Of a stretch of DNA of 64,000 nt, positions 175-63,735 are shown piece by piece (position 1 is the stretch's first letter; each line of letters opens with the position of its first letter). The notes beneath the pieces were generated by a model. The model worked only from the letters and a program-made list of their open reading frames with translations, did not search any database and was not told the origin of the DNA. The stretch is from contig OV277874.1 in NCBI GenBank assembly GCA_922989275.2, forward strand, positions 22,742,154-22,806,153. The letters run 5' to 3'. This stretch comes from Gari tellinella. Its lineage: Eukaryota; Mollusca; Bivalvia; Cardiida; Psammobiidae. A program made the position numbers and the translations under genes.

Positions 175-421
175 TACAGTGGAGAAAACATTATTCTTTC
201 CCGTTTAAACGCAAACGCACGCGAACGCATTGCAATAAAACACAGAAAATGACCTATTGACACTCTTGGCCATTTATTATAATCTGAGTGGCAAACAGTT
301 TTGAGCCTGATTAGACGCCGAGTTACCCGGCGTCTGATCTGGCTCCAAACCGTATGCAATTAAACTAATAGTTTTAGCGTAAACGCGTTTGTTGGGAAAG
401 AATAACGTTTTCTCCACTGTA
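175..421 (+). mobile_element. Family A hairpin miniature element (MITE), older copy
   Basis: Family A definition: about 250 bp, flanked by TA, with terminal inverted repeats beginning CAGTGGAGAATCTGTTATTC. One arm carries repeated ACGCAAACG, the other AACGCGTTTA. The centre is a palindrome of about 60 bp whose left arm runs CAAACAGTTTGGAGCC, then GATCAGACGCC. No coding capacity; TA flanks and CAGTG ends suggest mobilisation by a Tc1/mariner-type transposase. In this copy both ends are readable but the left palindrome arm has mutated. Orientation is set so that the GTTTAAACGCAAACG arm comes first. Confidence 0.8.
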
Positions 422-509
422 CGGTGTCACCCTTATCTAGCAAAACCACCAACTGCTCAAAAAGGCCGTGTTTGACCTTACTGGGTACGGAGATAACCTC
501 TTCATCACA

Positions 510-812
510 TATCTCCCTTCCTACAGCAATTATCCCAATAGCGAGTCCTTACTAACAACAATACTTGTCGCTGTTCCCAAATAAAGACAAGTATGTCTTA
601 CACTTATTATAAACTACTCTAATAAGTTGCCATTTTGACAGAAATATAACGACTACTCACAAACAGCTGGAGTCCAAATCGTGACGCGGCATCAGATCTG
701 GATTCAATATGTTTGCAAGTGTAAGTCAGGTCGTAATTTTCCCTTCCTATAACAACACCCTCAGAGCATCACAAACAGTATTCGGATGTTCTTGTAAAGA
801 GAAAGCACTTTA
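510..812 (+). mobile_element. Family C hairpin element, degraded
   Basis: Family C definition: about 360 bp, TA-flanked, ends CAGTGCTCCCTCCCTACAAC, internal blocks TTGCCGCTGTTCCCC and GTCGTCTGCTG, and a central palindrome with CAGCTTGAATCC and GATCAGACGCC arms. This copy keeps CTTGTCGCTGTTCCC, CATTTTGACAG, the palindrome remnant at about 660-715 and a right end resembling GTAAAGAGAAAGCACT. Boundaries are approximate. Confidence 0.55.
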
Positions 813-821
813 CCAACTATT

Positions 822-1143
822 CTAGCTGTTAAAAACTGTTAGAATTCTCATTAGATGCCAGAAAATGCGACATCTGATAAATATAAAAATTGTTTTAGAA
901 CCGTTTACATATTTCAGTAGAAAACAATCGAAATTAATTAACTTAACAAATAAAGCTGATTTTGTTTAACATGCGCTATCATGACGTTTTAAATGTTTAC
1001 AAACGGACTTTGCCGTCATTGTGATGTCATAAGAGGAAATAAAAGAGCTAACAACAAACTGTTGTTAGCATAAACTTAGCTCCATCTGATCTGGATACAA
1101 AAATGTAAGAAACGTGTTATAAGAATTGGTCTGGAAAGTCTTG
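822..1143. other. No recognisable feature
   Basis: AT-rich sequence without a supportable ORF, clear terminal repeats or RNA gene. It separates a degraded family C copy from a family D copy. Confidence 0.5.
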
Positions 1144-1401
1144 TTAACCCTTTACCTGATAGCCTATTTCTAGTATTGAAGATAGGTGACTACTTAAAGC
1201 AGGTTGAAAGTAAAGCAGAATGCGCCTTAAGGCGCATTCTGCTTTACTTTCAGTCTGCGTTAAGCTATCATGTGCTAGAATGTAGAAAATATTCCTTAAA
1301 ATATATATTCATTACTGATCAAATTGGAACATTTTTCTTCAGCGGAGGAATAAGAATAAATCATATTCGCTAAAAGGCGCTTGTATGGGGGAAAAGGGTA
1401 A
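1144..1401 (-). mobile_element. Family D hairpin element (TTAA type)
   Basis: Family D definition: about 250 bp, flanked by TTAA, ends CCCTTTACCTGATAG, with a central palindrome whose arm reads AAAGCAGGTTGAAAGTAAAG then CAGAATGCGCC. TTAA plus CCCTTT ends resemble piggyBac-type termini (inference). This copy starts at a clear TTAA and has a near-perfect palindrome at about 1194-1262; the right end is diverged (AAAAGGGTAAA). Orientation is opposite to the copy at 26891. Confidence 0.75.
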
Positions 1402-1701
1402 ATGACCAACTAACATGTCGGTGTAGCGTTTCGTGATAAAGTGTCAATATTTGTGTAAATCTAATTCACTGGTTTAAGCCTCTTTAAAATGAGAATACTG
1501 TACGCTAAAACAAGAAGCAACACACAAAATGAATGCAACAACCCGAACGCAATGCACATTTTAAAACTTATAGACTTATAACAATATTAAGAGCTTGTCT
1601 CTATATACATGTATGTGGCAAAGAGTTGTGAACCTACTCAGACGCAAAATTACTCTTCTTCAGACTGATCTGATCCGGCACTGTATGCGATGGACATACA
1701 T

Positions 1702-1953
1702 GTACAGTGGAGAATGTATTATTCTCTCCCAATAAACGCGTTTTCGCTAAAAACTATAATTTCCCATACAAACAGTTTGGAGCCAGATCAGACGCCGGGT
1801 AACCCTGCGTCTGATCAGGCTCCAAACTGTTTGCCACCAAGATAAACATGAAATATCAGAATTGTCCAAAAGTTGTACTTTTCTACGTTTTAGTGCTTTG
1901 CGTTTGCGTACGTTTGCGTTTAAACGGGAAAGAATAACAGATTCTCCACTGTA
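1702..1953 (-). mobile_element. Family A hairpin MITE, well preserved
   Basis: TA-flanked, left end CAGTGGAGAATGTATTATTC, right end the matching GAATAACAGATTCTCCACTG. The central palindrome at about 1770-1832 has full-length arms and a GGGTAACCC apex carrying one mismatch. Confidence 0.9.
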
Positions 1954-4575: not shown

Positions 4576-5169
4576 TACACTCAGTACAAAAAGAAACGCA
4601 CATTGTGCTCAGGCGCAGATTAAGAGACTTTTTTAAGATACTAAGACCATATCTCAAGATCAATTTGCGTTATCAATCTGCCACAAGTTTAGAAAAACAT
4701 ATACTTAAAATTACTGTGCTGTATTTTAACCCTTTCACTCTGAATGATGTCAAAAGGCGCGTTTTCAAACAGTTTGGTTCCTGATCAGACGCCGCGTAAC
4801 GCGGCGTCTGATCAGGATCTAAACTGTTTGACACTCGTATATATATACTTTAAGTCATACTACTTTGAATCTTACTTTGAAACGATCTTGCAAACAACAA
4901 AATTGAAGCAGACGACAATGAAACGGTGGTGGGATAAAAATCTCACGATTAATTTGGCAGCGAAAGAGTTAACTAGTGCCTGTTGAAAACACCGCACCGA
5001 TTTGTACAGGTTATGATGATAACAATTCAATGATAAACCTCCCATTTTCAACATTGATAGCCCAATACGGAACTACTGACTGTAATACAAAGATTATTTC
5101 CCAAATATGTTCCTTCTACATACAGATAGTATGGTAATAAAAGTGTGCGTTTCTTTTTGCACTGAGTGT
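4576..5169. mobile_element. Family G element, interrupted by a family B MITE
   Basis: Family G definition: TA-flanked, inverted ends ACACTCAGTGCAAAAAGAAA then CGCAC, with subterminal GTGCTCAGGCGCAGAT. Both ends are present here (4576 and about 5145-5169). A family B copy with its own TTAA sites lies inside, so B inserted after G. There is no ORF of substance. The AAAAAGAAACGCA block also occurs in the ends of the Tc1-like relic at 57423-58295. Confidence 0.75.
4726..4972 (+). mobile_element. Family B hairpin MITE (TTAA type), intact
   Basis: Family B definition: about 245 bp, TTAA at both ends, ends CCCTTTCACTC and (A)AAGGG, central palindrome with arms CAAACAGTTTGGATCC and GATCAGACGCC, then CACTCGT, AAAATTGAAGCAGACGACAA and GGTAAAAATCTCACG. 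Here both TTAA sites and a nearly perfect palindrome (about 4768-4829) are present. Nested in family G. Confidence 0.9.
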
Positions 5170-5223: not shown

Positions 5224-5302
5224 AGGCCTGCACAAACACTAATGACCCTGATCAGACTTCTATTGAATGAACAGTCTGATCAGGGTCTACACTATTTGCC
5301 AT
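5224..5302. repeat. Isolated hairpin with the shared core layout
   Basis: Imperfect palindrome: CACTAATGACCCTGAT, CAGA, then the complement ending TACACTATTTGCC. It keeps the spacing CAN-N13-CAGA seen in families A-E but no recognisable terminal repeats surround it. Probably a relic related to family E. Confidence 0.55.
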
Positions 5303-6080: not shown

Positions 6081-6372
6081 TACAGTGGAGAATCTGTTAT
6101 TCTTTCCCAATAATTGCGTTTACGCTAAAACTATTATTTTCTCTGCAAACAGTTTGGAGCCAGATCAGACGCCGGGTAACCCGGCGTCTGATCAGGCTCC
6201 AAACTGTTTGCCACCAAGATAAACAAGAATTATCAGAATTGTCCAAAAGTTGTTCTTTTCTACGTTTTAGCGCTTTGCGTTTGCGTACGTTTGCGTTTAA
6301 ACGGGAAAGAATAACATATTCTCCACTGTATGACGTCACCAATGACGTAAGAATAACAGATTTTCCACTGTA
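6081..6372 (-). mobile_element. Family A composite with an extra third terminus
   Basis: A complete family A copy (6081-6330, palindrome about 6148-6210) is followed directly by TGACGTCACCAATGACGT and a second right terminus (AGAATAACAGATTTTCCACT). The whole is 292 bp. The same compound arrangement and length occurs at 43223-43514 with unrelated flanks. Confidence 0.85.
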
Positions 6373-7456: not shown

Positions 7457-7706
7457 TACAGTGGAGAATCTGTTATTCTTTCCCGTTTAAACGCAAACGT
7501 ACGCAAACGCAAAGCACTAAAACGTAGAAAAGTACAACTTTTTGACAATTCTGATAATTCATGTTTATCTTGGTGGCAAACAGTTTGGAGCCTGATCAGA
7601 CGCCGGGTTACCCGGCGTCTGATCTGGCTCCAAACTGTTTGCACTGTAAATAATAGTTTTATCGTAAACGCGTTTATTGGGAATGAATAACAGTTTCTCC
7701 ACTGTA
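7457..7706 (+). mobile_element. Family A hairpin MITE, intact
   Basis: TA-flanked, both termini and a nearly perfect palindrome (about 7577-7640, apex GGGTTACCC). Very similar to the copies at 44389, 51053 and 61201, so a recent insertion. Confidence 0.92.
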
Positions 7707-7929: not shown

Positions 7930-8302
7930 TACAGTGAAACCCCTCTAAACCGGACATGTGTGGGGACAACAAAAATGTCCGGTTTAAAGGGGTTTCCGGT
8001 TTAGAGGGGTTTTAACTTGTTTCTAGTATGGAAGTTAGTTGACCACTTAAAGAAGGTTGAAAGTAAAGCAGAATGCGCCTTAAGGCGCATTCTGCTTTAC
8101 TTTCAACCGGCTTTAAGCTATCATCTGCTAGAATGTAAAAACTATTTTCTTAGTGTAAGAAAAAACCAATGACGTAATAAGGCGTGTTAATGGCGAAATG
8201 GGTAAAAATAAAAAAAAGGATTGGAAACGGGACCAAAGCTTTTGTCCGGTTTAGAGAGGATTCCGGTATTTAGAGGTTCCGGTTTAGAGGTGTTTCACTG
8301 TA
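7930..8302. mobile_element. Family F element (CCGGTTTAGAGGGG ends), interrupted by family D
   Basis: Ends TACAGTGAAACCCCTCTAAA and CTCTAAACCGG...GTTTCACTGTA (imperfect inverted repeat, TA flanks), with repeated CCGGTTTA(G/A)AGG words inside. A family D sequence occupies 8010-8206. A half copy of F is at 26743. Confidence 0.75.
8010..8206 (-). mobile_element. Family D element nested in family F
   Basis: Perfect central palindrome at about 8049-8115 (AAGGTTGAAAGTAAAG then CAGAATGCGCC, apex TTAAGG). The flanks GTTTCTAGTATGGAAG and TTAATGGCGAAATGGGTAAA match family D but the distal TTAA ends have decayed. Confidence 0.75.
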
Positions 8303-11199: not shown

Positions 11200-13330
11200 C
11201 CAAAAACCTTAACCTTGGCTATAACTCTTGCATTTTTGTACCTGAACCTTTTATACTTGACATGTGTCTTCCCTGTATCAAGACCTTTCCATCCATACAA
11301 ACCTTTTTGACCTTGTGACCTTGACCTTGACATTTGCCCTACTTTTGGAAAAATCTTTAAATGGCTATAACATTTGCACCAGTAGGCCCAGGGCTTTCAT
11401 ACTTTGTATGTATATTTCTTTTGTCAAGACCTTTTCAACCATAACAACATCTTTGACCATGTGACCTTGACCTTGACCTTTGACCTATTTAATCAAACTT
11501 TAACCAAAAACCTTAACCTTGGCTATAACTTTTGAATTTTTAAACCTTGGCCTTTTATACTTGGCATGTGTATTTCTCATGGCAAGACCTATCCAACCAT
11601 ATAAAACTTTTTGACCTTGTGACCTTGACCTTGACATTTGACCTACTTTTGTAAAAATCTTTAAATGGCTATAACATTTACACCAATAGGCCCAGGGCTT
11701 TCATATTTTGTATGTATATTTCTTTTGCCAAGACCTTTCCAACCATACCAACATCTTTGACCATGTGACCTTGACCTTGACCTTTGACCTATTTAATCAA
11801 ACTTTAACCAAAAACCTTAACCTTGGCTATAACTTTTGAATTTTTAAAACTGGGCCTTTTATATTTCGCATGTGTATTCCTCATGGCAAGACCTTTCCAA
11901 CCATATAACACTCTTTGACCATGTGACCTTGACCTTGACCTAGGACCTATTTAATCAAACTTTAACCAAAAACCTTAACCTTGGCTATAACTTTTGAATT
12001 TTTAAACCTGGGCCTTTTATACTTGGCATGTGTATTCCTCATGGCAAGACCTTTCCAACCATATAAAACTTTTTGACCTTGTGACCTTGACCTTGACATT
12101 TGACCTACTTTTGTAAAAATCTTTAAATGGCTATAACATTTGCACCAATAGGCCCAGGGCTTTCATATTTTGTATGTATATTTCTTTAGCCAAGACCTTT
12201 TCAACCATACCAACATCTTTGACCATGTGACCTTGACCTTGACCTTTGACCTATTTAATCAAACTTTAACCAAAAACCTTAACCTTGGCTATAACTGTTG
12301 AATTTTTAAAACTGGGCCTTTTATATTTCGCATGTGTATTCCTCATGGCAAGACCTTTCCAACCATATAACACTCTTTGACCTTGTGACCTTGACCTTGA
12401 CATTTGACCTACTTTTGTAAAAATCTTTAAATGGCTATAACCTTTGCACCAGTAGGCCCAGGGCTTTCATAATTTGTATGCATATTTCTTTTGTCAAGAC
12501 CTTTCCAACCATATCAACATCTTTGACCATGTGACCTTGACCTTGACCTTTGACCTATTTAATCAAACTTTAACCAAAAACCTTAACATTGGCTATAACT
12601 TTTGCATTTTTAAACCTGGGCCTTTTTATACTTGGCATGTGTATTCCTCATGGCAAGACTTTTCCAACCATATAAAACTGTTTGACCTTGTGACCTTGAC
12701 CTTGACATTTGACCTACTTTTGTAAAAATCTTTAAATGGCTATAACATTTGCACCAGTTGGCCCAAGGCTTTCATATTTTGTATACATATTTCTTGTGTT
12801 AAGACCGTTCCAACTATACCAAATTCTTTGACCATGTGACCTTGACCTCGACCTTTGACCTATTTAATCAAACTTTAACCAAAAACCTTAACCTTGGCTA
12901 TAACTTTTGCATATTTGCACCTGGGCCTTTTATACTTGGCAGGTGTCTTCCCTGTGGCGAGACCTTTCCAACCATACAAAACTTTTTGACATTGTGACCT
13001 TGACATTTGACCTACTTTTGTTAAAATCTTTAAATGGCTATAATATTTGCCCCAGTAGGCCTACGGCTTTCATATTTTGTTTATATATTTCTTGTGTCAA
13101 GACCTTTCCAACCATATCTACGCTTTTGCCCTTGTGACCTTGACCTTTGACCGGCTTTTGTATAAATCTTTATATGCCTATAACATTTGAACCAGTAGGC
13201 CTAGAGCTTCCATACTTTGTATGTACATGTACATTGTATGTTTCTTGTGTTAAGACTTGTTCAACCATGCCAATGTTTCATTTACCATGCGACCATGACT
13301 TTTGACCTACTTTTGCAAATAAGCATTACA
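11200..13330. repeat. Tandem core array: 304-bp dimers of two ~152-bp subunits
   Basis: The phrase CTTTGACCATGTGACCTTGA occurs at 11451, 11755, 12217, 12521 and (nearly) 12826, giving steps of 304 or 305; the gap between 11755 and 12217 contains an extra hybrid half unit at 11913. Subunit 1 has TTTAATCAAACTTTAACC, subunit 2 has CTACTTTTGTAAAAATCTTT. Each subunit carries TGACCTTGACCTTGACC. The units at the right end are more diverged. No coding potential. Confidence 0.9.
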
Positions 13331-13855: not shown

Positions 13856-14313
13856 TTAACCCTTGTACTCTTAATGACTACTTAAAGCGCGTTTGCAAAC
13901 AGTTTTGGGTCTAATCAGGACCCAAACTGTTTTGACACTCTTATCGATAGTTATTTAGTCATACAACTTACTTTAAAACGTGTCTTGCATACAACAATAC
14001 TGCAGCAAACGACAATAAAGCGGAGGGGTACAGTGGAGAAACTGTTATTCTTTCCCAATAAACGCGTTTACGCTACAACTATTATTTCTATTGCAAACAG
14101 TTTGGAGCCAGATCAGACGCCGGGTTACCCGGCGTCTGATCTGGCTCCAAACTGTTTGCCACCAAGATAAACATGAATTATCAGAATTGTCCAAAAGTTG
14201 CACTTTTCTACGTTTTAGTGCTTTGCGTTTGCGTACGTTTGCGTTTAAACGGGAAAGAATAACAGATTCTCCACTGTAAACATATTCCACATAAATGATC
14301 ATGAAAGGGTTAA
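13856..14313 (+). mobile_element. Family B MITE interrupted by family A
   Basis: TTAA at both ends. The palindrome has lost its apex: CAAACAGTTTTGGGTC joins almost directly to GGACCCAAACTGTTTT (about 13896-13933). A complete family A copy sits inside the right half at 14029-14278, so the TTAA element is the older. Confidence 0.88.
14029..14278 (-). mobile_element. Family A hairpin MITE nested in family B
   Basis: Both termini, TA flanks and a perfect palindrome (about 14094-14157, apex GGGTTACCC). Target is the GGGGTA of the host family B copy. Confidence 0.92.
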
Positions 14314-17284: not shown

Positions 17285-17455
17285 ACAGTTTTCCTTATTG
17301 GAGAAGACATCATCTTCATGATATTATGAATAACAAATGGATGCTAGAATTTGCAACAGGGAATCATTTCACTGTTTGATAGATGCAGCTATCAGTTCTG
17401 GCGATTAAGATATCGATTTGGTAAATACGTGATGATTTAACCGACAAATATTTCT
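17285..17455 (+). repeat. Direct repeat, left copy, flanking the LINE
   Basis: TATTGGAGAAGACATCATCT, ATTTCACTG, GATAGATGCAGCTATCAGTT and ATTTAACCGACAA are matched in order by 21662-21826. The pair brackets the LINE-bearing segment. Confidence 0.75.
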
Positions 17456-19586
17456 CATACAGTGGAGAACCTTCGTAGAAGGATGAATAATCATCACAAT
17501 GCTTAATACACATTTTAACTATTGAATACATTTCTTTAATGATCCGTAACATTTTACCCTTAATACCTACCCTAAACAATTTCAGCCAAAGACCATGGTG
17601 ATACACACTGTCAAATGCCTTTTTCAAATCAACAAAGGCGCAAAATAATTTCCCCTTATTACGCAATATTTTTTGAATTGTTGCATTCAACACAAATATA
17701 GCGTCTGTTGTTGAGCGGCCCTTTCTAAACCCAAATTGGGCGTCTGTCAGAATATCATTGTTTTCAGCCCAAGATGAAATGCGATTGTTTAAAACGCCTG
17801 TGAAAATCTTTGAGAAACAGCTCACCAACGAAATGCCCCTGTAGTTATTAACGTTACTTTTATCACCCTTCTTAAATAACGGTACAATAATACCCTCACA
17901 CCATTTCTCTGGGAAAACACCCGATTCAAATATACAATTAAATATGTCAACTAAATGAGCAGACAGAATATCAAAAGATTCCAAAAAATACTCGTTAATA
18001 AGTTGATCACCGGCATATGCCTTGTTCCTTTTCAATTTTCTAACAACAGCTTCAATTTCAGATTGTGTAATCGGAGAATCAAGCTCCTCAAAAGACACAT
18101 TTTGTGAATCAAAATCATTATTCACAAAGAAATCTTCTGAATCACTATCATGTGGATTTGGTAAATCATCATTTAGTTTTGAAAAGTATTCAAAAAATTC
18201 ATCTAGCGATATGTCCCGTGCACTGCTTTCATCATTTCGCTTACTAAAATGCCGCCAAAAGTCCCTCGGCTTTCTATGTCTCAATCTTTCGACCTCTGTC
18301 ATTTTATTAAGCTCAAAACGTCTTTTCTTTTTTTTAATCAAGTTCTTGTATATCTTTTTCTTATCCAACATTGATATTCTGTTTGCATCATTCTTACATT
18401 TATCAAAAACATGCAAATACTGTTGGTAAATACGCTTAGCTTCTAAACATTCACTATCAAACCAGTCTGCCTTTTTAATAAAGGACTTTATATAACTATT
18501 CGATCGAGATTTATACATGCGTTTTAAAAACAATGGACTAGCTACTTCATTTAATATCTGTGTAAAGTCATTAATGCCTTTATTAACACTCTCTTTGCCA
18601 TTTAACACCATGTCATCAGTAATTCTATTTAATACAGGTAACTGTGCAATAAGTCGACGCCTAAAGTCGTCTTTCAAATCCGGGTCCCATTTAACAAAAT
18701 TAAACACATTTCCCTTTCCAACACATTCATTGTTTAGCGCCGTATTACACCTTAACCCAAAACACACAGGCGCATGGTCAGACCATTCATTAAATTTACC
18801 TATTTCAAAATTACACAAGATACCGAAATCACTATTCCGTAACAATAAGTAATCAATAACACTGCTACCGTTTATGCTAGTATAAGTGTAATCACCTATC
18901 GAATTATCTTTAAACAGCCTGCCATTCGCAAGCCTAAAGCCGCTAGACTTGCATAAGTCTAACAGCTTTAGCCCGTGCGAATTGCAACCTTTATCCATGG
19001 AAACACGAGATAACGGTACACCAGGGGTATAGTCATCATAATCAATAATATCAGAGTTGGAATCGCAAACAATGTAGTCAGGTCGAGATCCATTGCCAAC
19101 ACGTGCATTCCAGTCACCACACAGCAGTACACTACCTGCGGACTCGTAACAGTTAATGTCATTCTGTATAAGTTGAAACAAATCAATGTCATGTACATCA
19201 TAAGCTGGTGAATTCTCAACCCAAATATAAATTCCTGCTAAATAAACATCATTTTCAAAATTAAAAAACTGCTTATCTAATTTCAACCATATCACCGTGT
19301 CCAAATGGTTTTTAGCAACTGTAACACCCTTAACCAATGATTCTTTTATGAAAACAACTGTACCGCCACTACAACGTCTCGCCCGTCGATTCTGAAACTG
19401 TCTAGGAAAATTGAAACTCTTGTAACCTTTAATGTTAATCTTTGACGATTTGTTTGCCCATGTCTCAAAAAGAAATATAATATCATACTGCTCTAATACA
19501 CGTAGTAAGTCACAATCGCTCAACTTATCACTGCCTAGCCCATGAATGTTCCATGACAAAACTTTCAGCTCAGCCCCATCGCATCC
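17364..19586 (-). pseudogene. LINE ORF2: endonuclease plus partial reverse transcriptase
   Basis: Open for 731 codons from a TTG at 19559; the frame is open back to the UAG of ORF1, nine codons upstream. Residues (from the TTG): APE-type endonuclease 1-265 with SWNIHG 2-7, FETW 31-34, GDWNAR 148-153, IDY 235-237 and SDH 260-262; then a basic linker; reverse transcriptase from about 500 with PLFKKGD 560-566, NYRGISL 572-578, FRKGRST 611-617 and motif A FVDLKKAFDS (Asp644). The Y/FADD motif, thumb and C-terminus are absent: about 35 residues after position 696 are read from unrelated DNA. No in-frame AUG precedes Met188. Not functional as it stands, though the endonuclease looks intact. Confidence 0.9.
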
Positions 19587-20600
19587 CTAACTGTTCATTC
19601 CCTGATCACGCACTGGCCTTCCATCAATATATAGAGTATCATAACTCAGCCATGCTGATTTCCCCTGCCTTCGAGCTTCTTTGAGTTTTGGTAGTAAGCT
19701 CTTCCGCCTCTGTGCGATTACAGGTGGGTACTGCTCGTACATGGAGTAGTTGGTACCGGCTAGTTTCCTTCCCTGATTACGTACGGTCTCGCGATCTTTG
19801 AACAGCGAAAATTTTGCGACGGTTTTTCTAGGATTTCTTGTAGCATTCAGTTTTTGACCAACCCTATGTACACGCTCAAATTTGATCTCATTAATGACAT
19901 CCTGTGCTAGTTTTAGTTTGGCGTGCATGAAATCACGCACCAACTGTTCCGTTTGGACCGGTGTCTCGCGCTCCTCTTCTTCAATATTCGCAAACATAAG
20001 GTTATTACGCATGGATTGCGACTGTAGGTATAATAAATTGTCTTGCATATGCATCTTGTCTTTATGCAGCTGCGCAAGTTGGTCCTGTGTCGTACCAAGT
20101 GAGAATTCCAGAGTATCAACCCTGTCGGAAACTTTATTAACGTTCTCATTATTCTTATAAATGCTGTCTTGTACGTACAGCCTCAACGCCCGTAATTCCT
20201 TATCAAATTCTCCTACTTTCTTTTCAAGTGTATCTAATTTATCCAGCTTCTTGTCAACTACGTCAATCTTCTTGTCTAGCCTTTTCAGAGAGACCAGGAT
20301 TTCAAGATTTGATGTACCCCCCACCGACTTAAGTTCCGTTTCATCACTGACACCAGTGTCCTGGGCTGCACAAGATTTACCAGCTTTATCTGCTGCACGA
20401 GGCATTTTGGTTTTTTCTTTTATAACATTACCTTTCACGGTCTTTGGTAGCTTACCCCCTTTCTCTCCGCTCATGATTCGATTAAAAACTTTGGAAAGAT
20501 TAAGCACTATCCTTTGTCACCCGGCAAACATACGAAGCGCGTGACGTCATGAATCTGCAGATGACGACACAATGTTGTTAAATGTGGGAGGGGTAAACAA
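17465..20600 (-). mobile_element. Non-LTR retrotransposon (LINE), 3'-truncated
   Basis: Minus-strand LINE containing a presumed 5' UTR (about 20475-20600), complete ORF1 and an ORF2 that stops being LINE-like around 17470, inside the reverse transcriptase. The junction carries GTTCTCCACTGTA (17458-17470 on the other strand), the terminus of family A. Target-primed integration normally loses 5' ends; here the 5' part is kept and the 3' half lost, so a later rearrangement is likely. Clade uncertain: ORF1 is L1/Tx1-like. The left boundary at 20600 is approximate. Confidence 0.85.
19587..20474 (-). CDS. LINE ORF1 protein (coiled coil, RRM, C-terminal domain)
   Basis: The first AUG is at 20474 with A at -3, giving 295 residues; the frame extends 11 codons upstream without AUG. 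Residues 57-150 form long charged heptads (LDKKIDVVDKKLDKL region), followed by an RRM-like NNLMFANIEEEE (157-168), ERVHRVG (200-206), and a CTD with RNQGRKLAGTNYSMYEQYPP and LLPKLKEARRQGKSA. This is the Transposase_22/L1 ORF1p layout: a trimeric nucleic-acid chaperone binding the LINE RNA. No zinc knuckle or esterase. It ends with UAG followed by GGA and continues in frame into ORF2. The open frame suggests a fairly recent insertion. Confidence 0.88.
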   Translation of the reverse strand: MSGEKGGKLPKTVKGNVIKEKTKMPRAADKAGKSCAAQDTGVSDETELKSVGGTSNLEILVSLKRLDKKIDVVDKKLDKLDTLEKKVGEFDKELRALRLYVQDSIYKNNENVNKVSDRVDTLEFSLGTTQDQLAQLHKDKMHMQDNLLYLQSQSMRNNLMFANIEEEERETPVQTEQLVRDFMHAKLKLAQDVINEIKFERVHRVGQKLNATRNPRKTVAKFSLFKDRETVRNQGRKLAGTNYSMYEQYPPVIAQRRKSLLPKLKEARRQGKSAWLSYDTLYIDGRPVRDQGMNS

Positions 20601-21826: not shown

Positions 21827-22011
21827 GTCTAAGGCCTATCACATGTTTTGCCCATTTAAGTAGAAGTTCCTAATAAAGCGTCTGGAGAGACACAGCAGAA
21901 AGCTCATGTACACGTACATTCGGCTTCGGTCGGCTTATGTTGTCTTAAATATCCAGCAACTAGAAACAGTTTAGAACATTTCGTTTCACTGTACTTTTAG
22001 CTAGTTTAAAG

Positions 22012-22193
22012 TACAGTCGAACTTCGATATATCGAACTTGGTCAAGTCGTACATACCCCTATTTCAAAGTTAAAACCTGGCTAAGCCAGGTTTTAACTTT
22101 GAAATACGGATATGTTCGACTAAACCGAACATAAAATAATGAAGTTAATGTGTCGACATATCCGATAGTTCGAGATATCGAAGTTCGACTGTA
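22012..22193. mobile_element. Family M MITE, TA type, ends CAGTCGAACTTCGATAT
   Basis: 182 bp. Inverted ends TACAGTCGAACTTCGATATA and its complement. Central perfect palindrome CAAAGTTAAAACCTGGCT / AGCCAGGTTTTAACTTTG at about 22056-22101. It is a nested foldback like families A-E, but the core does not share their layout. Confidence 0.88.
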
Positions 22194-26742: not shown

Positions 26743-26880
26743 TACAGTGAATCCTCTCTTAACCCGACATGTGTTGGGGCAACAACACATATGGTTTAGA
26801 GGGATTTCTAGTTTAGAGGGTTTTAATGCATTACCAAATTAGCTTGTTTCTAGTATGGGATATAGATGTCCACTTAATGT
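26743..26880 (+). mobile_element. Family F, left half
   Basis: TACAGTGAATCCTCTCTTAA, CGACATGTGTTGGGGCAACA and GGTTTAGAGGGATTTC match the copy at 7930. The right half is missing; a family D copy lies next to it, the same pairing as at 7930-8302. Confidence 0.65.
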
Positions 26881-26890
26881 TGGTTGACGG

Positions 26891-27143
26891 TTAACCCTTT
26901 ACCTTATAGAAGCGACTTTTAGCACGTTCATTTTATTCATCCGCTGAAGAAAATAGTTCCAAATTATACCGTTATGAATATGTGTCATATTTAATACTTT
27001 CCTTATTCTAGTAGTTAATAGCTTAAAGCAGGCTGAAAGTAAAGCAGAATGCGCCTAAGGGCGCATTCTGCTTCACTTTCAACCTACTTTAAGTAGTCAC
27101 ATATCCTCAGTACTAGAAACAATGCTATCAGGTAAAGGGTTAA
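26891..27143 (+). mobile_element. Family D hairpin MITE, intact
   Basis: Reference orientation. TTAA at both ends, CCCTTTACCTTATAGAAGCG left end, TATCAGGTAAAGGG right end, palindrome at about 27022-27093 (AAAGCAGGCTGAAAGTAAAG then CAGAATGCGCC). Confidence 0.92.
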
Positions 27144-27474
27144 GCATACTGTGCCTTAAGATGTATTCTGCTTTGCTCTCAACCTGGACCTAATTGATTG
27201 CAATGTGAATAGGTGTTCTCTCGATGTTATAATCTAATTGCATCGGAATTAGTATTAAAACAACAATGTCTCTTTTAGAACATACAATTTGAAGGAACAG
27301 ATAAAAGCCAGCTTATAAGATAACAGTATGTATTTTGATCAAACAGTATGCTCCATTAATTATTCTATCGTCTTAAAGTCGGTTTAACAATAATCGACAA
27401 AATAAAAAAAAAAAGGATATATATATTTGTTTTAAAAAGCCTTTGTTGTAATCAAACTATATATATATATATAA
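27144..27474. other. Unassigned, ends in an (AT)n tract
   Basis: No ORF or element recognised. A short D-like fragment (CCTTAAGATGTATTCTGCTT) lies near 27152; the ATATATATATATAT tract near 27458-27473 belongs to the tail of the SINE-like element that follows. Confidence 0.45.
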
Positions 27475-27725: not shown

Positions 27726-28130
27726 AACAAGTAGTTAAATTCCTTACCTTAGTTTAGAAATAAGTTATTTCAAAATAACGCCAAAATGGCACTTTCGCAC
27801 CAAAGTGTCAAAGTTTATGACGTTTAATGTTTACAATGGAACGTTATTTTGCTGTGTTGTAATATTTAGTTATGTGGTGATGGCTATTCCTTTCAGTGGA
27901 CACAATAATCGTGTAAACACCCTCTAAGAAGGATTCAAATATGTGCATACTAGTATAGTTTTCATTATATTTTTTTTAAATTACAGCAAATATAATGTAA
28001 TTCATGTATTTGACTATCATCTTGCGTCTTTGCTTTCGCGTGGACATTGAAATGATTCAGTTTAATTCTAAAATACAGTCGGTAAATGTGGAGCAGTGCC
28101 TGATTAATTTCTGAATTCAGTAGTTTTCAC
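27726..28130. other. No recognisable feature
   Basis: AT-rich, no ORF, no terminal repeats noticed. Confidence 0.45.
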
Positions 28131-30498: not shown

Positions 30499-30725
30499 TT
30501 TGTACGATTTTGAATTTCTTCTGGATTACGCGTCATGAATATTTCGCGTAATGCGATTTTGTATTAATTCGCGACATCATGCAATATTTCTTGCAGGTGG
30601 TAGCTTAAAGCAGGCTGAAAATAAAGCAGATTATGCCTTAAAGAGGCTCACAACGAATACAGTTTCCTTATTCGCGAATAAATCATATTCTCGCGAATAA
30701 AACCGGTTTTACAGTATTCAAAATT
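30499..30725. mobile_element. Mixed relics (family D core; TTTTACAGTA-ended element)
   Basis: TAGCTTAAAGCAGGCTGAAA is a family D fragment (30600-30640). ATTCGCGAATAAATC and CGCGAATAAAACCGGTTTTA then CAGTA look like one end of a TA element; ATTACGCG/CGCGTAAT near 30530-30560 is a short inverted pair. No complete element. Confidence 0.4.
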
Positions 30726-36659: not shown

Positions 36660-37019
36660 TACCGTGCTCCCTCTTTACAACGACACCCAATGGGATTATA
36701 TATTGTGTTAATTGTTCGGAGGGAGTCGTTATAGGGAGGGCAATTGGCTTAAATTTGCATACAGCTTGAATCTAGATCAGACGCCGCGTGACGTGGTGTC
36801 TTATCTGCCTTCAAGCTGTTTGTCACTCGTCATTAAGGTTTTTTATGTCAATTGTCAATTATGTAACTGTGAGAAAAAACAGCAAACGACAATTTTAAGC
36901 AGACGATATTGCAGCAGTAAAAGTGTAAGACATAACTTACCTGTTTAGGGAACTGCGTCAAGAGTCGTTGTAAGAAGGGATCGTTGTTGGGAAGGACGTT
37001 GTAGAAAGGGAGCACTGTA
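36660..37019 (-). mobile_element. Family C hairpin element, well preserved
   Basis: TACCGTGCTCCCTC left end, AACGACACCCAATGGG, TGTTCGGAGGGAGTCG, palindrome at about 36761-36823 (one arm mutated at the apex) and GTTGTAGAAAGGGAGCACTG right end. Confidence 0.88.
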
Positions 37020-37098: not shown

Positions 37099-37350
37099 TT
37101 AACCCTTTCCCTGATAGAAGCGACTTTTAGCACATGCATTTTATTCATCCGCTGAAGAAAATAGTTCCAATATAAACCGTACTGAATATGTGTCATATTT
37201 AATACTTTCCTTATTCTATCTTGTAATAGCTTAAAGCAGGCTGAAAGTAAAGCAGAATGCGCCTTAGGGCGCATTCTGCTTTACTTTCAACCTGCTTTAA
37301 GTAATCACCTATCTTCAATAGTATAACTAGCCTATCAGGTAAAGGGTTAA
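37099..37350 (+). mobile_element. Family D hairpin MITE, intact
   Basis: TTAA at both ends, CCCTTTCCCTGATAGAAGCG left, TATCAGGTAAAGGG right, palindrome at about 37230-37300. Confidence 0.92.
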
Positions 37351-39535: not shown

Positions 39536-39788
39536 TTAACCTTTTCCCTTATAGAAGCGACTTTTAGCACATTCATTTTATTCATCCGCTGAAGAAAATA
39601 GTTCCAAATTATACCGTAATGAATATGTGTCATATTTAATACTTTCCTTATCCTAGCAGTTAATAGCTTGAAGCAGGCTGAAAGTAAAGCAGAATGCGCC
39701 TTAGGGCGCATTCTGCTTTACTTTCAACCTGCTTTAAGTAGTCACATATCTTCAATACTAGAAACAAAGCTATCAGGTAAAGGGTTAA
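39536..39788 (+). mobile_element. Family D hairpin MITE, intact
   Basis: TTAA at both ends, CTTATAGAAGCGACTTTTAG, palindrome at about 39671-39738, TATCAGGTAAAGGG right end. Very close to the copies at 26891 and 37099. Confidence 0.92.
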
Positions 39789-43222: not shown

Positions 43223-43514
43223 TACAGTGGTGAATCTGTTATTCTTTCCCAATAAACGCGTTTACGCTAAAACTATTATTTGCAGTGCAAACAGTTTGGA
43301 GCCAGATCAGACGCCGGATAACCCGGCGTCTGATCAGGCTCCAAACTGTTTGCCACCAAGATAAACATGAATTATCAGAATTGTCCAAAAGTTGTACTTT
43401 TCTACGTTTTAGTGCTTTGCGTTTGCGTACGTTTGCGTTTAAACGGGAAAGAATAACAGATTCTCTACTGTATGACGTCACTAATGACGTCAGAATAACA
43501 GATTCTCCACTGTA
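43223..43514 (-). mobile_element. Family A composite with a third terminus, second locus
   Basis: Complete A copy (43223-43472, full palindrome about 43288-43351 with one mismatch) followed by TGACGTCACTAATGACGTCA and another right terminus GAATAACAGATTCTCCACTG. Same 292-bp length and order as 6081-6372. Confidence 0.88.
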
Positions 43515-44679: not shown

Positions 44680-45071
44680 TTAACCCTTCACCGCCTTGCC
44701 CAATATAAAATAAAAATCCAATCTGTTTTACACTCATAACGATAATAGCGCTTGCATCAATTTACCTTTACAGTACTGAACCTTGTTAAATTAAATTGAT
44801 AATCGCAAGCGAATTGCCATCGAATCGCGCGCTTCAAAAAACAAATCCTACGTTTGAATATTTTAACGCGAATTTTCCGAAGCGGTTGTGACAAAAATGG
44901 AATCGAAAACATTAACGAAGGCATATGTGCGAACATTTGTGAGATACACCATTCAAGAAAACTTACCCAAAGGTAAAGTTAGTACTTTGAATCGCAAGCG
45001 AATTGCCATCGAATTGCAAGCGAATTGTAAGCGAATCGCAAAAATTGTTAATTTAATAAGATTCATTACTG
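44680..45071. other. Family B' end fragment and GCAAGCGAATT reiterations
   Basis: AACCCTTCACCGCCTTGCCC near 44684 is a B'-type end. AATCGCAAGCGAATTGCCAT occurs at about 44800 and 44993, with GCAAGCGAATTGTAAGCGAA following the second. No gene recognised. Confidence 0.5.
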
Positions 45072-45310
45072 TAACCCTTTCACACTAAATGACGCGCGTT
45101 TACAAACAGTTTGGATCCTGATCAGACGCCGCGTAACGCGGCGTCTGATCAGGATCCAAACTGTTTGACAATCGTTTTGAAATTTCCTCAGCCATACTGC
45201 CATATCTTTTAAATTTGAATCAACATTGCAGACTTCAAAATTGAAGCAGACGACAATGAAACAGTGATGAGGTTAAAATCTCACGAACTATTTGGTAGGG
45301 AAAGGGTTAA
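45072..45310 (+). mobile_element. Family B hairpin MITE, intact core
   Basis: AACCCTTTCACACTAAATGA left (the left TTAA reads GTAA), perfect palindrome at about 45104-45167 (apex GCGTAACGC), AAATTGAAGCAGACGACAAT, right GGGAAAGGGTTAA. Confidence 0.9.
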
Positions 45311-46866: not shown

Positions 46867-47056
46867 CGAACGGCAAAGGCATAACAATAAAATATAGACA
46901 ATGGAAACTTGTTTTACAATTCTGACTATTCATTTTAATCTGAGTAGCAAACAGTTTGATCAGACGCCAGGTTACTCCAAACTGTTTGCAATGGAACTAA
47001 TAGTTTAAGCGTAAAATGCGTTTATTTGGGGACAGAATAACGCCTTCTCCACTGTA
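46867..47056 (+). mobile_element. Family A, left end lost to a younger A copy
   Basis: CATAACAATAAAATATAGAC, reduced palindrome (CAAACAGTTTGATCAGACG, then GTTACTCCAAACTGTTTG), then AATAACGCCTTCTCCACTG. Confidence 0.7.
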
Positions 47057-48186: not shown

Positions 48187-48404
48187 TACAGTGGAGAATG
48201 TGCTATTCTTTCCCAATAAACGCGTTTACGCTAAAACTAATATTCCATATACAAACAGTTTGGAGCCAGGCTCCAAACTGTTTGCCACCAAGATAAACAA
48301 GAATTATCAGAATTGTCCAAAAGTTGTTCTTTTCTACGTTTTAGTGCTTTGCGTTTGCGTACGTTTGCGTTTAAACGGGAAAGAATAACAGATTCTCTAC
48401 TGTA
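48187..48404 (-). mobile_element. Family A MITE with symmetric apex loss
   Basis: Termini preserved. Palindrome reduced to a 33-base perfect hairpin, CAAACAGTTTGGAGCC-A-GGCTCCAAACTGTTTG (48252-48284). Nested in an older A copy. Confidence 0.88.
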
Positions 48405-50282: not shown

Positions 50283-50638
50283 TTCGCTCCCTCCCATCAA
50301 CGGCCTTCCTAACAACGACTTCTTCCTTACAACGACCCTTGCCGCAGTTCCCTTAACAATACAAATATGCCTAACGCTTTTACTGCTGCAATATCGTCTG
50401 CTTACAATTGTCGTCTGCTGTTTGTTCTCATAGTGACATTTAAATGGACATTTTGATAGAATAAATATAACAGCTTGAATCCAGATCAGACGCCGCGATA
50501 CGCGGCGTCTGATCTGTGTTCAAGCTGTTTGCAAATGTAAGCAAAGTCTTAATTTTTCACTCCCTATAACGACTCCCTCCGAACAACACACAATATGTGT
50601 CTCCCATTGAGTGTCGTTGAAGAAAGGGAGCGCTGTAT
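50283..50638 (+). mobile_element. Family C hairpin element, well preserved
   Basis: CTTCGCTCCCTCCCATCAAC left, ACGACCCTTGCCGCAGTTCC, ATTGTCGTCTGCTG, near-perfect palindrome at about 50465-50528 (apex GCGATACGC), GTCGTTGAAGAAAGGGAGCG right. Confidence 0.88.
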
Positions 50639-51052: not shown

Positions 51053-51302
51053 TACAGTGGATAATCTGTTATTCTTTCCCGTTTAAACGCAAACGTACGC
51101 AAACGCAAAGCACTAAAACGTAGAAAAAAACAACCTTTGGACAATTCTGATATTTCTTGTTTATCTTGGTGGCAAACAGTTTGGAGCCTGATCAGACGCC
51201 GGGTTACCCGGCGTCTGATCTGGTTCCAAACTGTTTGCACTGCAAATAATAGTTTTAGGGTAAACACGTTTATTGGGAAAGAATAACAGATTCTCCACTG
51301 TA
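51053..51302 (+). mobile_element. Family A hairpin MITE with a matching empty site
   Basis: Intact termini and near-perfect palindrome (about 51172-51236). The flanks GGGAATTCAATT...GTTA and TCTAAAACTTAGTGATTTCG match uninterrupted sequence at 52962-53048, where no element is present. Confidence 0.92.
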
Positions 51303-52950: not shown

Positions 52951-52961
52951 GTTTTAGAGAT

Positions 52962-53048
52962 GGGGAATTCAATTTATTTTCTTACATCTAAAACTTAGTT
53001 ATTTCAAATTTCCTTATAGGTAACCTCATAGATATAACGCCTTGATCA
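52962..53048 (+). repeat. Paralogous empty site for the A copy at 51053
   Basis: GGGGAATTCAATTTATTTTC, TTACATCTAAAACTTAGTTA and ACCTCATAGATATAACGCCT correspond to 51030-51052 plus 51303-51360 without the MITE. Confidence 0.8.
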
Positions 53049-60225: not shown

Positions 60226-60774
60226 TACACTCAGTACAAAAAGAAACGCACATTTTGTATCACAATCTTATTTTATGTAGAAGGAACGTATTTGTGAATT
60301 ATTATTGAATCATTATTGAATTGGTAGCATCACAACCTGCACTAATCGGTGCGGTCATTTAAACAAGCTGTAGTTAATTCTTTCGCTGCCAAATTAATCG
60401 TGAGGTTGTTACCCCTTCACCGTCTTATTGTCGTCTGCTTCAATTTTGTTGTTTGGAAGATCGTTTCAAAGTACAATTCAATGTAGAATGACTTAAATTA
60501 AATCGATAAGAGTGTCAAACAGTTTGGATCCTAATCAGACGCCGCGATACGCGGCGTCTGATCAGGATCCAAACTGTTTGCAAACGCATTTTGGCGTCAT
60601 TAGGATGGAAATCGTTAAAAGGCAGCACAATGTTTTTTGAGTATTTTTTTTCTGAACTTGTTGCAGAATTAAATAAATCTTGAGATATGGTCTTTCTTTT
60701 CTAATTTTCCTAAAAATAAATGTATTCTAATCTGCGCCTGAACACGATGTGCGTTTCTTTTTGCACTGAGTGTA
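60226..60774. mobile_element. Family G element, interrupted by a family B MITE
   Basis: TACACTCAGTACAAAAAGAA left and TGTGCGTTTCTTTTTGCACT then GAGTGTA right, with subterminal ATCTGCGCCTGAACACGATG. Contains a reversed family B copy; the copy at 4576 also contains B, in the opposite relative orientation or position. Confidence 0.78.
60374..60618 (-). mobile_element. Family B hairpin MITE, intact
   Basis: TTAA at both ends, CTTTCGCTGCCAAATTAATC, GTCGTCTGCTTCAATTTTGT, near-perfect palindrome at about 60514-60580 (apex GCGATACGC; one arm change), GGCGTCATTAGGATGGAAAT. Confidence 0.88.
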
Positions 60775-61200: not shown

Positions 61201-61450
61201 TACAGTGGAGAATCTGTTATTCTTTCCCGTTTAAACGCAAACGTACGCAAACGCAAAGCACTAAAACGTAGAAAAGAACAACTTTTGGACAATTCTGATA
61301 ATTCTTGTTTATCTTGGTGGCAAACAGTTTGGAGCCTGATCAGACGCCGGGTCACCCGGCGTCTGATCTGGCTTCAAACTGTTTGCACTGCAAATAATAG
61401 TTTTAGCGTAAACGCGTTTATTGGGAAAGAATAACAGATTCTCCACTGTA
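61201..61450 (+). mobile_element. Family A hairpin MITE, intact
   Basis: TA flanks, both termini, palindrome at about 61319-61383 with apex GGGTCACCC and one arm change. A typical young copy of 250 bp. Confidence 0.93.
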
Positions 61451-61497
61451 AACACAATGAATGCATATGAACCGTGCTGTGAAAAAAAAAGTCTGTC

Positions 61498-62556
61498 TTA
61501 AGGTGGTTCGACAGCGGGCGGCCCGCATCTCAAATTACGGAAATTCTGATGACTTTTACATGATCTTTTCGGCACGTGCTTATAGTAGACAATTTACATA
61601 ATTATAGAACATTTTGATAAGCTTCAGTGTCTTCTTTGTTAGCGCAGTTGGCAAAGTGATTGACTAGCAAACCAAAGGTTCCAGGTTCGATTTCCACTCG
61701 CTACAAATCTTTCTTTTTTAATAAATTGTCAGATTTTTATTGACTAGTCATTTCATAACGCAGTGACCAAAGGACAGGCTATGTTTAGTCACGTAATAAT
61801 GAATAATATCAGATGCAAGTATTGTCAAGTGACAACTAAACTGTGTAAGGATTAATAGCCTATATGACAGATATCATCTTAACACAGGACAAAAGTAATG
61901 ATAAAATATATATCTTAATACTTTTGTGATGCATTAAGCAGTCACCTGTCTTGAAAGATCTACAGGCTACATGTACCGTATTCAATGGTCCTTTATTCCA
62001 GGTTTGACTTTTGGTATTATTTTGAGCTGACGGCATGTTAAAGTTGAACTCAAGGGAGGTAGCTCGTTTTGTGTAACATTTTGTCAGAACTTCTGGAAAT
62101 CATGTATAAAATGTAAATTCCACTATAGATTTTCATTAATTTTTTGTGACTAGTAGAATTAAGTTATATCTATCTAATAAGAGTAAAATTAGTGTATGTT
62201 TAACAGCTAGAAATTTTGTAATTTGAGATTTAGTGACTCTTTCAGAATTTGACTTTTTTTTAAATATTGATATTTCCAGAAAATATGTCATGAAATATTT
62301 TTGTTTGCACAATATCTTATAGTCTCTGTACAGTTTACTTGAATATACAGAAACTCTTGAGTTATATCATTTTATAAAGAAAATATTTCTGTTCACAAAA
62401 AAAGGTGCTTTTCTCGACAAATGGTCCTGTCAGAAAAAACGGCACTGTAATATTTTTTATTTTAACGATTTTTCACTTTCCATATGGTATATTTCAATTT
62501 AATCAAGGTTTCAAAGAATTCTGACACGAAATAAGTTGACCCGAGAACCACCTTAA
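61498..62556. mobile_element. TTAA-flanked element, 1.06 kb, ends AAGGTGGTTC
   Basis: TTAAGGTGGTTC at the left and GAACCACCTTAA at the right form short inverted ends with TTAA at each edge. The interior is AT-rich, has no significant ORF, and includes a tRNA-like segment. TTAA suggests piggyBac-type mobility (inference from the target site only). Confidence 0.7.
61638..61708 (+). other. tRNA-like sequence (probable pseudogene or SINE head)
   Basis: TTAGCGCAGTTGGCAAAGTG matches an A box and GGTTCGATTTCC a B box at suitable spacing, with AGC in the position of the anticodon. Stems pair poorly, so a functional tRNA is unlikely. It lies inside the TTAA-flanked element. Confidence 0.55.
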
Positions 62557-62997
62557 TGCATTGCACACGGTGTATATCGACGCTAGCTGCCGCGCTAAAG
62601 ACGCGACGACTGGTCTTGATCTCCACTGTTTGGCACCCACATGCGTCTAAAGCATTGTATTTAGCTGTATTATATATGCTAATTGACAATGTAGACATAA
62701 CGCATATGTAGAGCCAGTGCTTTGTCTGTACAATGATTCAATGGAACAAGGCAGACTTTGTCATGACACGGTTCAATAATGTTTTTATACCACAAAACTA
62801 CATGTTTCGCCTTGTTTACGCAAGTACAATGTGCATTAACTTTAGATTTACTAACTGTATGTGTTCACTTCGGATGATCTGACACTACGAACTCTTCATG
62901 CAATAATAAAAAATAGAAAATGAAAACTGTTGACTGTTTATCTGATCTGAGTGGCCGACCGTCTGCTTAACTCGGTGCCTATTCATACATCAAACTG
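62557..62997. other. No recognisable feature
   Basis: A weak palindrome-arm fragment (GGCCGACCGTCTGCTTAACT, CATCAAACTGTTTGCAATTG) near 62952-63005 recalls families A/B. Otherwise unassigned. Confidence 0.4.
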
Positions 62998-63375
62998 TTT
63001 GCAATTGAATTATAGTGTTCGCTCTCTATTTAAACACCCAATGGGAGACAAAGTGTGTGTGTGTTGATCGGAGTGAGTTGTTTTAAGGAAGGAATATACA
63101 TATTTTTACAGTGAAAATAGTTTTAATCCAAACCAGACGCCGCGTAACGAGGCGTATGATCTGGATTCAAAATGTGTGTCACTCGTCATTATAATTTGTT
63201 TGTTCAATTGGCCACTTTGTTGATTTGAAAAATCTCCAAGCAACTATTTTAGCCAAAAACAGACGATATTGCAGCAATGAAAAAGTAACGGCACATTTGT
63301 CTTGTTTAGGAAAGAACATCAATCATTGTTGTATGAAGGGAATCGTTGTTAGGAGGTTAGTAAAACAAAACACTA
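62998..63375 (-). mobile_element. Family C hairpin element
   Basis: TTCGCTCTCTATTTAAACAC, CCAATGGGAGACAAAGTG, TGATCGGAGTGAGTTG, palindrome at about 63117-63177 with mismatches (CAGACGCCGCGTAACGAGGC), CAGACGATATTGCAGCAATG; right end decayed. Confidence 0.75.
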
Positions 63376-63517
63376 TAATTGTTTAAGCACAAGAGCATTT
63401 ATTCGGAAAGTGCAACGTCTGTTCCGCTGTTTGCAACGCCTTGCCAATTGTTGTGATAAATAGGAAATAGAAAGTTAGAATGTATACACGATATATCTAA
63501 TCTTATTGCATCTCGTC

Positions 63518-63735
63518 TTAAACCCCTTCACTGCCTTACCCCGAGTACCATAGTTTTTTTGCAAACAGTTTGGATCCTGATCAGACGCCGCGTAACGCGG
63601 CGTCTGATTAGGATCTAAACTGTTTGATACTCGTTTCAATATTTCGTAAGTCGAACTACCTAAAAATTGTTTTTTAGAAATAGAAGCAGACGACAATTGT
63701 TTAAATTTGATGACGTCATGACAGTGAAGGGTTAA
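63518..63735 (+). mobile_element. Family B' hairpin MITE, intact
   Basis: TTAA at both ends, CCCCTTCACTGCCTTACCCC left, near-perfect palindrome at about 63562-63625 (apex GCGTAACGC), AAGCAGACGACAATTGTTTA, TGACGTCATGACAGTGAAGG right. Reference for the subfamily seen decayed at 29280. Confidence 0.92.

Follow-up and report, generated by a model that had tools for sequence, protein, structure and literature searches.

A stretch of 64,000 nucleotides from the genome of the bivalve Gari tellinella (assembly GCA_922989275.2, contig OV277874.1, positions 22,742,154 to 22,806,153 of the forward strand; hereafter the window) carries related central hairpins of 65-72 bases in several families of gene-less mini-transposons, or miniature inverted-repeat transposable elements (MITEs), designated here by letters. 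Families A, C, J, and F are flanked by TA, and families B, D, and E by TTAA. The explanation that we favor, and consider fairly probable, is that the hairpin is an inherited core of non-autonomous DNA transposons whose ends changed. In such a scenario, a core-bearing TTAA element would insert into a TA element or vice versa, the composite would be copied by a transposase recognizing the outer ends, and decay of the inner ends would leave the core riding a different superfamily, while arm-templated repair in folded DNA would keep the palindrome symmetric, at least partly, and invert its center base.

All six palindromes named in a first-pass annotation of this DNA could be located, none more than about 10 bases from the position reported there: A at 7576-7642 (element 7457-7706, minus strand), B at 45103-45167 (45071-45310, plus), C at 50469-50529 (50288-50637, minus), D at 37230-37301 (37099-37350, minus), E at 32917-32981 (32838-33089, plus), and J at 31299-31370 (31233-31444, plus). 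A palindrome scan of the window, whose cut-off the J palindrome did not reach, listed 34 palindromes, 32 with the shared core and two without it (that of family K, at 22045, and a long, weak one at 47916). Profile searching (E ≤ 0.01, overlapping matches merged) raised the count to 85 core loci, many of them decayed, or about one locus per 750 bases, of which 75 belong to the A/B/C/E type and 10 to the D/J type; eight of the 85 score below 15 bits, and chance matches may be among them. Arm profiles placed 74 of these loci (36 in A, 19 in C, eight in B, seven in D, and four in E) and left 11 over, with locus 49769, scored as A, being reassigned to B by hand as its A-like left score adjoins a neighboring A element and its right arm is B-like. 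The near-full-length elements listed occupy 14,857 of the 64,000 bases. With regard to the layout first described for these cores (CAG, 13 bases, and CAGA), the spacing and the CAGA hold, but the outer position of J reads CAA rather than CAG in both arms. Family K (22010-22191; TA, pogo-like ends CAGTCGAACTTCGATATATCGAA), used here as a control, has a 77-bp central hairpin that is unrelated to the shared core and shows none of the layout, hence a central hairpin does not by itself imply it. Exact core patterns had no matches in viral contigs, a scan of genome contigs gave six stretches that are prokaryotic by title, and a protein-database search with the translated A core returned no candidate sharing three words. 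One or more of four core strings could be found in each of 15 papers, whose titles concern unrelated subjects. In addition, a remnant of an E-like core (CACTAATGACCCTGATCAGAC...) lies at 5233-5298, not within any assigned family, and half a D/J-type core (CTTAAAGCAGGCTGAAAATAAAGCAGATTATGCC) adjoins a pogo-like end, TACTGTAAAACCGGTTTTATTCGCG, at 30604-30716, where no left end was found and which is possibly one further TA carrier. MITEs are reported to make up a considerable, unclassified share of bivalve genomes in the available part of a transposon survey (PMC10294476).

Likeness among the cores was assessed on half-cores, with one arm only, so that the palindrome was not counted twice. Anchored at the apex, the matches out of 32 positions were 30 for A-B, 27 for A-C, 22 for A-E, 27 for B-C, 23 for B-E, and 21 for C-E, values that none of 2000 shuffles reached (null maxima of 18, 19, and 21 for A-B, A-C, and A-E, respectively), while D and J agreed at 28 of 36 positions against a null maximum of 23 in 2000 shuffles; there is a slight bias toward the observed values in this test, where the observed score was picked as the highest among four arm pairings and the null was built from a single pairing. 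Full-core identity was 60/65 for A-B, 59/65 for B-C, 56/65 for A-C, and 44/65 for A-E, using hand-written consensus letters for A, B, and C and copy 32917 for E. At the level of sequence, the cores of A, B, C, and E are shown to be homologous, as are those of D, J, and F. Chance or convergence of GC-rich palindromes could be invoked for the link between the two groups, which is indeed weaker, with single-pair p values from 0 (C-D) to 0.04 in the apex-anchored test and from 0.02 to 0.32 in local alignment. When D and J were held together in a joint column permutation against A/B/C/E, however, the observed likeness was reached by none of 5000 permutations for the D and J consensus or for D alone, by four for the two J arms, and by two for all three, and by zero, zero, and four of 5000 with blocks of two, three, and four columns; the control hairpin K was reached by 1587 of 5000. 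The half-cores of A, B, C, E, D, and J in this test were hand-written consensus letters, which may slightly favor matches, whereas the two J arms were used as read from the window. The two groups are therefore likely to be distantly related, as far as sequence likeness can tell, and the early description of D and J as keeping only the spacing and CAGA does not stand. Chance similarity inside either group was rejected by the shuffle and permutation tests, and chance as a general explanation of the likeness appears hardly credible.

The elements carrying these cores are short, non-coding, uniform in length within families, present in many copies, bounded by terminal inverted repeats (TIRs), and far too short for a transposase gene, as expected of MITEs. 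Family A measures 248 bp with one TA counted and ends in CAGTGGAGAATCTGTTATTC; 17 copies have both bounds and 29 are near full length by profile, a representative being 6081-6330 (plus strand, core 6145-6211). Family C reaches approximately 350-360 bp, with TA sites and CAGTGCTCCCTCTCTACAACGAC ends, and has 15 near-full-length copies, some with mutated ends. In the copy at 50288-50637 the ends read TACAGTGCTCCCTCTCTACAACGAC and the far one is mutated, while both are recognizable at 36660-37019 (plus strand), where a model match at 36660-37011 is followed by terminal GCACTGTA. Families B, D, and E span 240-259 bp including both TTAA, and their ends are CCCTTT-like, some of them mutated (GTAA at 45071 and TAAA at 1402 in place of TTAA; CTCTTT, TTCTTT, or CGATTT in place of CCCTTT). 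The ends of D at 37099-37350 read CCCTTTACC and CCCTTTCCC, and a second copy of E lies at 28130-28381 (minus strand, core 28238-28303). TA sites with CAG-type ends are the pogo and mariner type, and A, C, J, and F resemble Tc1/mariner and pogo-type MITEs in both respects, J having the pogo-like ends CAGTAAAACATCTCTATTAC. B, D, and E resemble piggyBac-type MITEs in their TTAA sites and CC[C/T]T-type ends (PMC2872659). These superfamily names rest on ends and target sites, because no transposase was found in the window. The outer ends, initially described as unrelated, are so across the divide between TA and TTAA, as evaluated with 200 shuffles; B, D, and E, on the other hand, have a CCCTTT-type motif in common, and the ends of J are similar to those of F (3 and 26 of 1000 shuffles). 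Two copies of A are followed by a near-identical short stretch (TGACGTCACYAATGACGT; 6330-6372 and 43472-43514) and then by a further A-type end, a hint that A units may occur in tandem or as composites.

Evidence for mobility was sought by joining the flanks of an element across one copy of its target site and matching them to the window. The joined flanks of A 51053-51302 (minus strand), with one TA, match an empty paralogue at 52955-53046 at 88% identity, and those of D 39536-39788 (minus strand), with one TTAA, match 30 stretches across the junction, all of them A-type, placing this copy inside a decayed A-type element. A further D copy, at 26891-27143 (minus strand), was placed by the same approach inside the core of an F element. 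As far as sequence can show, the joined flanks are those expected from insertion at TA for family A and at TTAA for family D, with target-site duplication or empty-site support covering these two families, and the proposal of one core in carriers that differ in their ends and target sites is borne out. The joined flanks of A 14029 and A 56498 match B-like and C-like sequence and suggest further nesting; matches for A 48187 merely reflect an adjacent A-like arm and were set aside.

The change of carrier is most directly seen in family F. Its first copy, at 7930-8302 (plus strand), has a TA site and the pogo-like ends CAGTGAAACCCCTCTAAACCGGA around a D-like TTAA element with its core at 8046-8117, the left inner end being shortened and the right one surviving as the relict GGGTAAA. 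The second, at 26743-27187 (plus strand), starts with TACAGTGAATCCTCTCTTAACCCGACATGTG at 26743, the same pogo-like end as that of the first (TACAGTGAAACCCCTCTAAACCGGACATGTG), and is interrupted by D 26891-27143. Alignment of the two copies scores 193 for the stretch reaching from the outer end through the core, whereas the 60 bases upstream score 13. The junction between outer arm and inner terminus in copy 2, at 26823, reads TTAATGCATTACCAAATTAGC, and its likeness to the D left end, TTAACCCTTTACCTGATAGC, was reached by 4, 4, 19, and 0 of 10,000 shuffles for four D copies. In copy 1, the right junction was compared with three of these four D copies, and its inner stretch matches the right end of D 1193 up to GGGTAAA (0 of 3000 shuffles). 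Within what sequence allows, F is shown to consist of pogo-like TA ends with a D-like TTAA element between them, and since the second copy, with an unrelated upstream flank, has the same left junction, the composite probably moved or was copied after nesting. For the same reasons, we dropped the possibilities that the 8046 core is an ordinary D element, as it sits in the pogo-like TA family F, and that it is a private nested insertion. F would be directly explained by nesting, amplification, and decay, and we read it as the fossil of a carrier change, one that offers a testable route for crossing between superfamilies. Repeated acquisition of the palindrome as a module is a view that suits F directly and that we extend to A and J by inference.

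A second link between carriers of different target sites comes from the right arms of B (TTAA) and C (TA), which are alike and collinear over about 100 nt in arms-only profiles with 20 decoys per arm. Of 15 C arms, the B arm profile matches 12, each of which scores higher (7.7-20.6 bits) than the best decoy (2.8), and the C arm profile matches all four B arms, three of them above the best decoy (19.3, 17.1, and 9.7). Pairwise, the B elements with cores at 4766, 60516, and 45103 each resemble the right arm of C 50469 beyond all of 1000 shuffles; these are the copies at 4726-4972 (plus strand, core 4766-4830), 60374-60618 (minus strand, core 60516-60580), and 45071-45310. Another element, B2 (63519-63735, plus strand), combines a B-type core and inner arm with another right TTAA end, GACAGTGAAGGGTTAA, and this end is found as a relict terminus inside the right arm of two of the three B copies, 60516 (there reading GACGGTGAAGGGGTAA; 2 of 5000 shuffles) and 45103 (1 of 5000). 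Nesting is the likely route for the B/C pair, with its common core and arm, even though no relict ends are established there. By extension, it may also account for A and J, where the core and a few shoulder bases remain. The suggestion that common descent of whole elements is unlikely needs qualifying, as the B/C arms and the F composite indicate that interiors can descend together while ends are replaced.

The same arms bear on the possibility that all carriers derive from one element, with ends that drifted or shifted via cryptic ends, arms that diverged, and a core that evolved slowly. The core and inner arm common to B and C would fit such a history, as would B2, which ends at the relict terminus of two of three B copies and thus has a shifted right end, and the bases just outside the core, which by eye are alike in B, C, and older A (NCACTC on one side). 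The A and B cores, however, are as close (60/65) as those of B and C (59/65), and yet an arm is common to B and C only, when uniform divergence predicts otherwise; moreover, the third B copy, 4766, has no significant relict terminus (713 of 5000 shuffles), and F shows end replacement through nesting. We consider descent of all carriers from a single element unlikely on these grounds.

Several results weigh against an inherited core with replaced ends. No transposase is present in the window, as mentioned above. The empty paralogue of A 51053-51302 reads CA where TA is expected, and most A stretches read TAAA at the site of D 39536-39788, with 46977-47029 reading TTAA. F rests on two copies in one 64-kb window, the second without a visible right end; the terminus of copy 2 is a weaker match once TTAA is removed (58-399 of 10,000 shuffles), and the right junction of copy 1 is not significant against D 39667 (188 of 3000) or D 27022 (358 of 3000). 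With regard to B and C, the one remaining B arm scores 9.2 with the C profile, just under the best decoy at 9.3; B is not significantly similar to C 43049 on strict scoring, and against C 48633 B2 alone is significant on both scorings. A candidate relict right terminus in C was reached by 121 of 5000 shuffles and by 186 of 2000 random stretches, and no empty host of C was found, hence C as a nested TTAA element could not be established. In the arms-only profiles, A has no arm similarity to any other family above decoys, for which reason capture of the core by A is something we infer; the arms of J are not significantly similar to those of D outside the core. The arms of E likewise resemble no other family's above decoys. 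Lastly, no clear present-day swap of cores was seen, as by eye core types go with their own arms among the assigned cores, 49769 having been the one apparent exception before its reassignment, so the exchange must be old or rare; decayed copies such as 44277, 40545, and 23869 have single foreign-looking bases in the core.

If the hairpin were itself a small mobile element inserting into the middle of MITEs, the abrupt way in which A and the other families cease to be alike close to the core edges would be accounted for. Inspection by eye, however, shows no target-site duplication around the core in A, B, C, or E, and 74 of 85 core loci lie in assigned arms, while among the other 11, which are decayed or belong to F or J, none looks like a clean solo core; the B/C homology, furthermore, extends past the core edge. 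The core as a separate mobile element was rejected for its lack of flanking duplications and of a clean solo copy, and we regard this possibility as very improbable.

The core is also better preserved than the sequence surrounding it. In 16 copies of A, it diverged at 18 of 1054 sites against 151 of 2926 in the arms (Fisher 4e-7), and in four copies of B its identity was 96.4%, against 57.6% and 68.9% in the arms; both sets of copies were drawn from the palindrome scan, which favors intact cores, and J, F, a decayed copy (42630), and a truncated one (48252) are not part of this tabulation. Copy by copy, lower divergence in the core than in the arms is seen in 25 of the 29 A elements and in 13 of the 15 C elements (Wilcoxon 0.0003 and 0.02, respectively). 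Among old A copies, with arms at least 10% diverged, the corresponding counts are 106 of 780 in the core and 501 of 2151 in the arms, and because the bias is present in old copies too, it is not simply the product of selection on mobile copies.

A functional module kept by selection, such as a binding site or structure aiding a transposase, a host factor, or replication, without which carriers would fail to amplify, would explain why the core diverges less than the arms in A, B, and C and why homologous cores occur in at least seven families with two types of target site; the authors describing the coral CMITEs speculate along similar lines (PMC2872659). Against it stand the scan-derived choice of the A and B copies and the old A copies, presumably dead, whose lower core divergence is not explained by selection on transposition and may instead reflect subfamily structure in the arms or arm-to-arm repair. 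K, in addition, is an example of a MITE-like element whose hairpin is unrelated. Paired changes, discussed below, are no proof of selection either, because arm-to-arm template switching can generate them without it. Extra selection on the core, for example favoring synapsis or excision, is possible, and we view a selected functional module as conceivable, though doubtful. A little more doubtful still is an extended version of it, whereby the hairpin would be a transferable selected module helping MITEs of unrelated superfamilies multiply, spreading by nesting, with new carriers bursting in copy number, a DNA-transposon counterpart of the conserved central domains of short interspersed elements (SINEs). 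As to the early suggestion that the palindrome is maintained for a function, the lower core divergence and the paired changes are real, though selection need not lie behind them.

Small-RNA production was among the functions proposed. The core would in this case be a source of double-stranded or small RNA (microRNA-like or small interfering RNA) protecting or regulating the elements, and predicted folds of -50 to -61 kcal/mol in five of six cores, and of -34 kcal/mol in J, with z scores of -9 to -15, are compatible with it. Hairpin loops of 3-4 nt, on the other hand, are short for a microRNA precursor, the inversions of the center base point to folding of DNA, the window has no Rfam match at gathering score, and a survey of 32 molluscs found, in the portion available, no dedicated small interfering RNA pathway (PMC12479628). 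RNA production is a less favored function of the core, and we believe it quite improbable.

The symmetry of the hairpin, on the other hand, counts in favor of the inherited core with replaced ends. In intact A/B/C/E cores (24 distinct of 26), 92.7% of cells pair, a share raised by the choice of copies as good palindromes, and two-sided changes affect 16 of 33 pairs (43 cells), compared to 3-6 pairs and 4-8 cells when partners are slid; none of 500 shuffles reached any of five measures of symmetry. Most of the differences that set B and C apart from A, like most of those in E, hold throughout the family. Inside a family, changes on one side only are more numerous than changes on both (104 to 17 in A, 20 to 0 in B, and 82 to 12 in C), and it follows that individual copies decay uncompensated; in old A copies, some of the double changes sit on CpG sites and may be coincident decay. 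The center base is complemented in 12 of 57 readable copies (6 of 34 in A, 3 of 7 in B, and 3 of 16 in C), against 64 of 3492 complement-type changes in other columns (Fisher 1.3e-9). In A 14029-14278 (plus strand, core at 14093), alignment shows a right arm matched to the left together with an inverted center base.

Template switching between inverted repeats has been described to homogenize arms and invert a spacer of a few bases, recurrently and reversibly (PMC8604942). Our cores resemble that system in these traits and differ from it in that the events there concern yeast coding genes, while here they are deduced in transposon cores from variation among copies. The hairpin evolves symmetrically, with center inversion as expected of template switching, and the recurrent flips are a sign that in animal chromosomes, too, perfect palindromes may fold and switch templates from arm to arm. 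Deletions of at least 5 nt over the center number five among 15 copies of C (arm points: mean 0.7, maximum 3) and two among 29 copies of A (mean 0.37, maximum 3), suggesting central fragility in C only. Separately, an A element at 48187-48404 has lost the core apex and retains a 33-bp palindrome, as expected of a hairpin-tip deletion.

The closest precedent is the CMITEs of Acropora corals, in which a conserved internal region of approximately 75 bases varies less than the differing TIRs around it, and which, like B, D, and E, have CCCTTT-type ends and TTAA sites; one of them, CMITE-IN, resembles F in being a new element made by insertion of one element into another (PMC2872659). As in CMITEs, the internal region is here conserved across TIR families, but all CMITEs are TTAA/piggyBac-like, whereas the core described here extends to carriers that have TA sites and mariner/pogo-like ends (A, C, J, and F). 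The available text of that paper contains neither the word palindrome nor secondary structure, and the internal regions are compared by description only (PMC2872659). Also by description only, the cores can be likened to MITE-like repeat 1 of the hemoglobin genes of Lucina pectinata, again a bivalve, with a 210-bp consensus, imperfect terminal repeats of 30 bp, and a 77-bp central palindrome (96%); in the part of the report available, however, it is a single family whose target site was not identified, and no sharing across end types is described (PMC4732748). Passage of an internal domain by nesting, followed by amplification from the outer ends, is documented for MER6, a Tc1/mariner MITE that received the highly conserved domain of V-SINEs, although its source was a SINE and not a TTAA element, and no hairpin is mentioned in the accessible portion of that work (PMC6887750). 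Among the matches listed, judged by titles and the openings of abstracts, there was no report of one hairpin core common to TA and TTAA MITEs. MITEs are classified mainly by ends and target sites (PMC2872659), and because the interior crosses between TA and TTAA carriers, ends alone would give a wrong genealogy. The density of cores, in addition, makes this genome a natural experiment on the relation between an internal hairpin and MITE success.

Other features of the window include a LINE-like element (long interspersed nuclear element) at 17364-20507 on the minus strand, with an endonuclease-reverse transcriptase open reading frame (ORF; Pfam RVT_1 and Exo_endo_phos) and an upstream ORF of 306 amino acids that has no Pfam match. 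The strongest named matches of the LINE-type ORF (17367-19559, minus strand) are metagenome-assembled genomes of Candidatus Thiodiazotropha, together with Mercenaria, Mactra, and Ruditapes; Candidatus Thiodiazotropha are lucinid symbionts, so that their matches are perhaps host DNA. By these matches, the window has the appearance of heterodont bivalve DNA. A tandem array with periods of 158, 304, and 462 bases and a GACCTTGACCTTTGACC motif occupies 11200-13152. Finally, a plus-strand ORF of 305 amino acids at 34755-35672 has no Pfam match at 0.001 and looks like part of a reverse transcriptase element.

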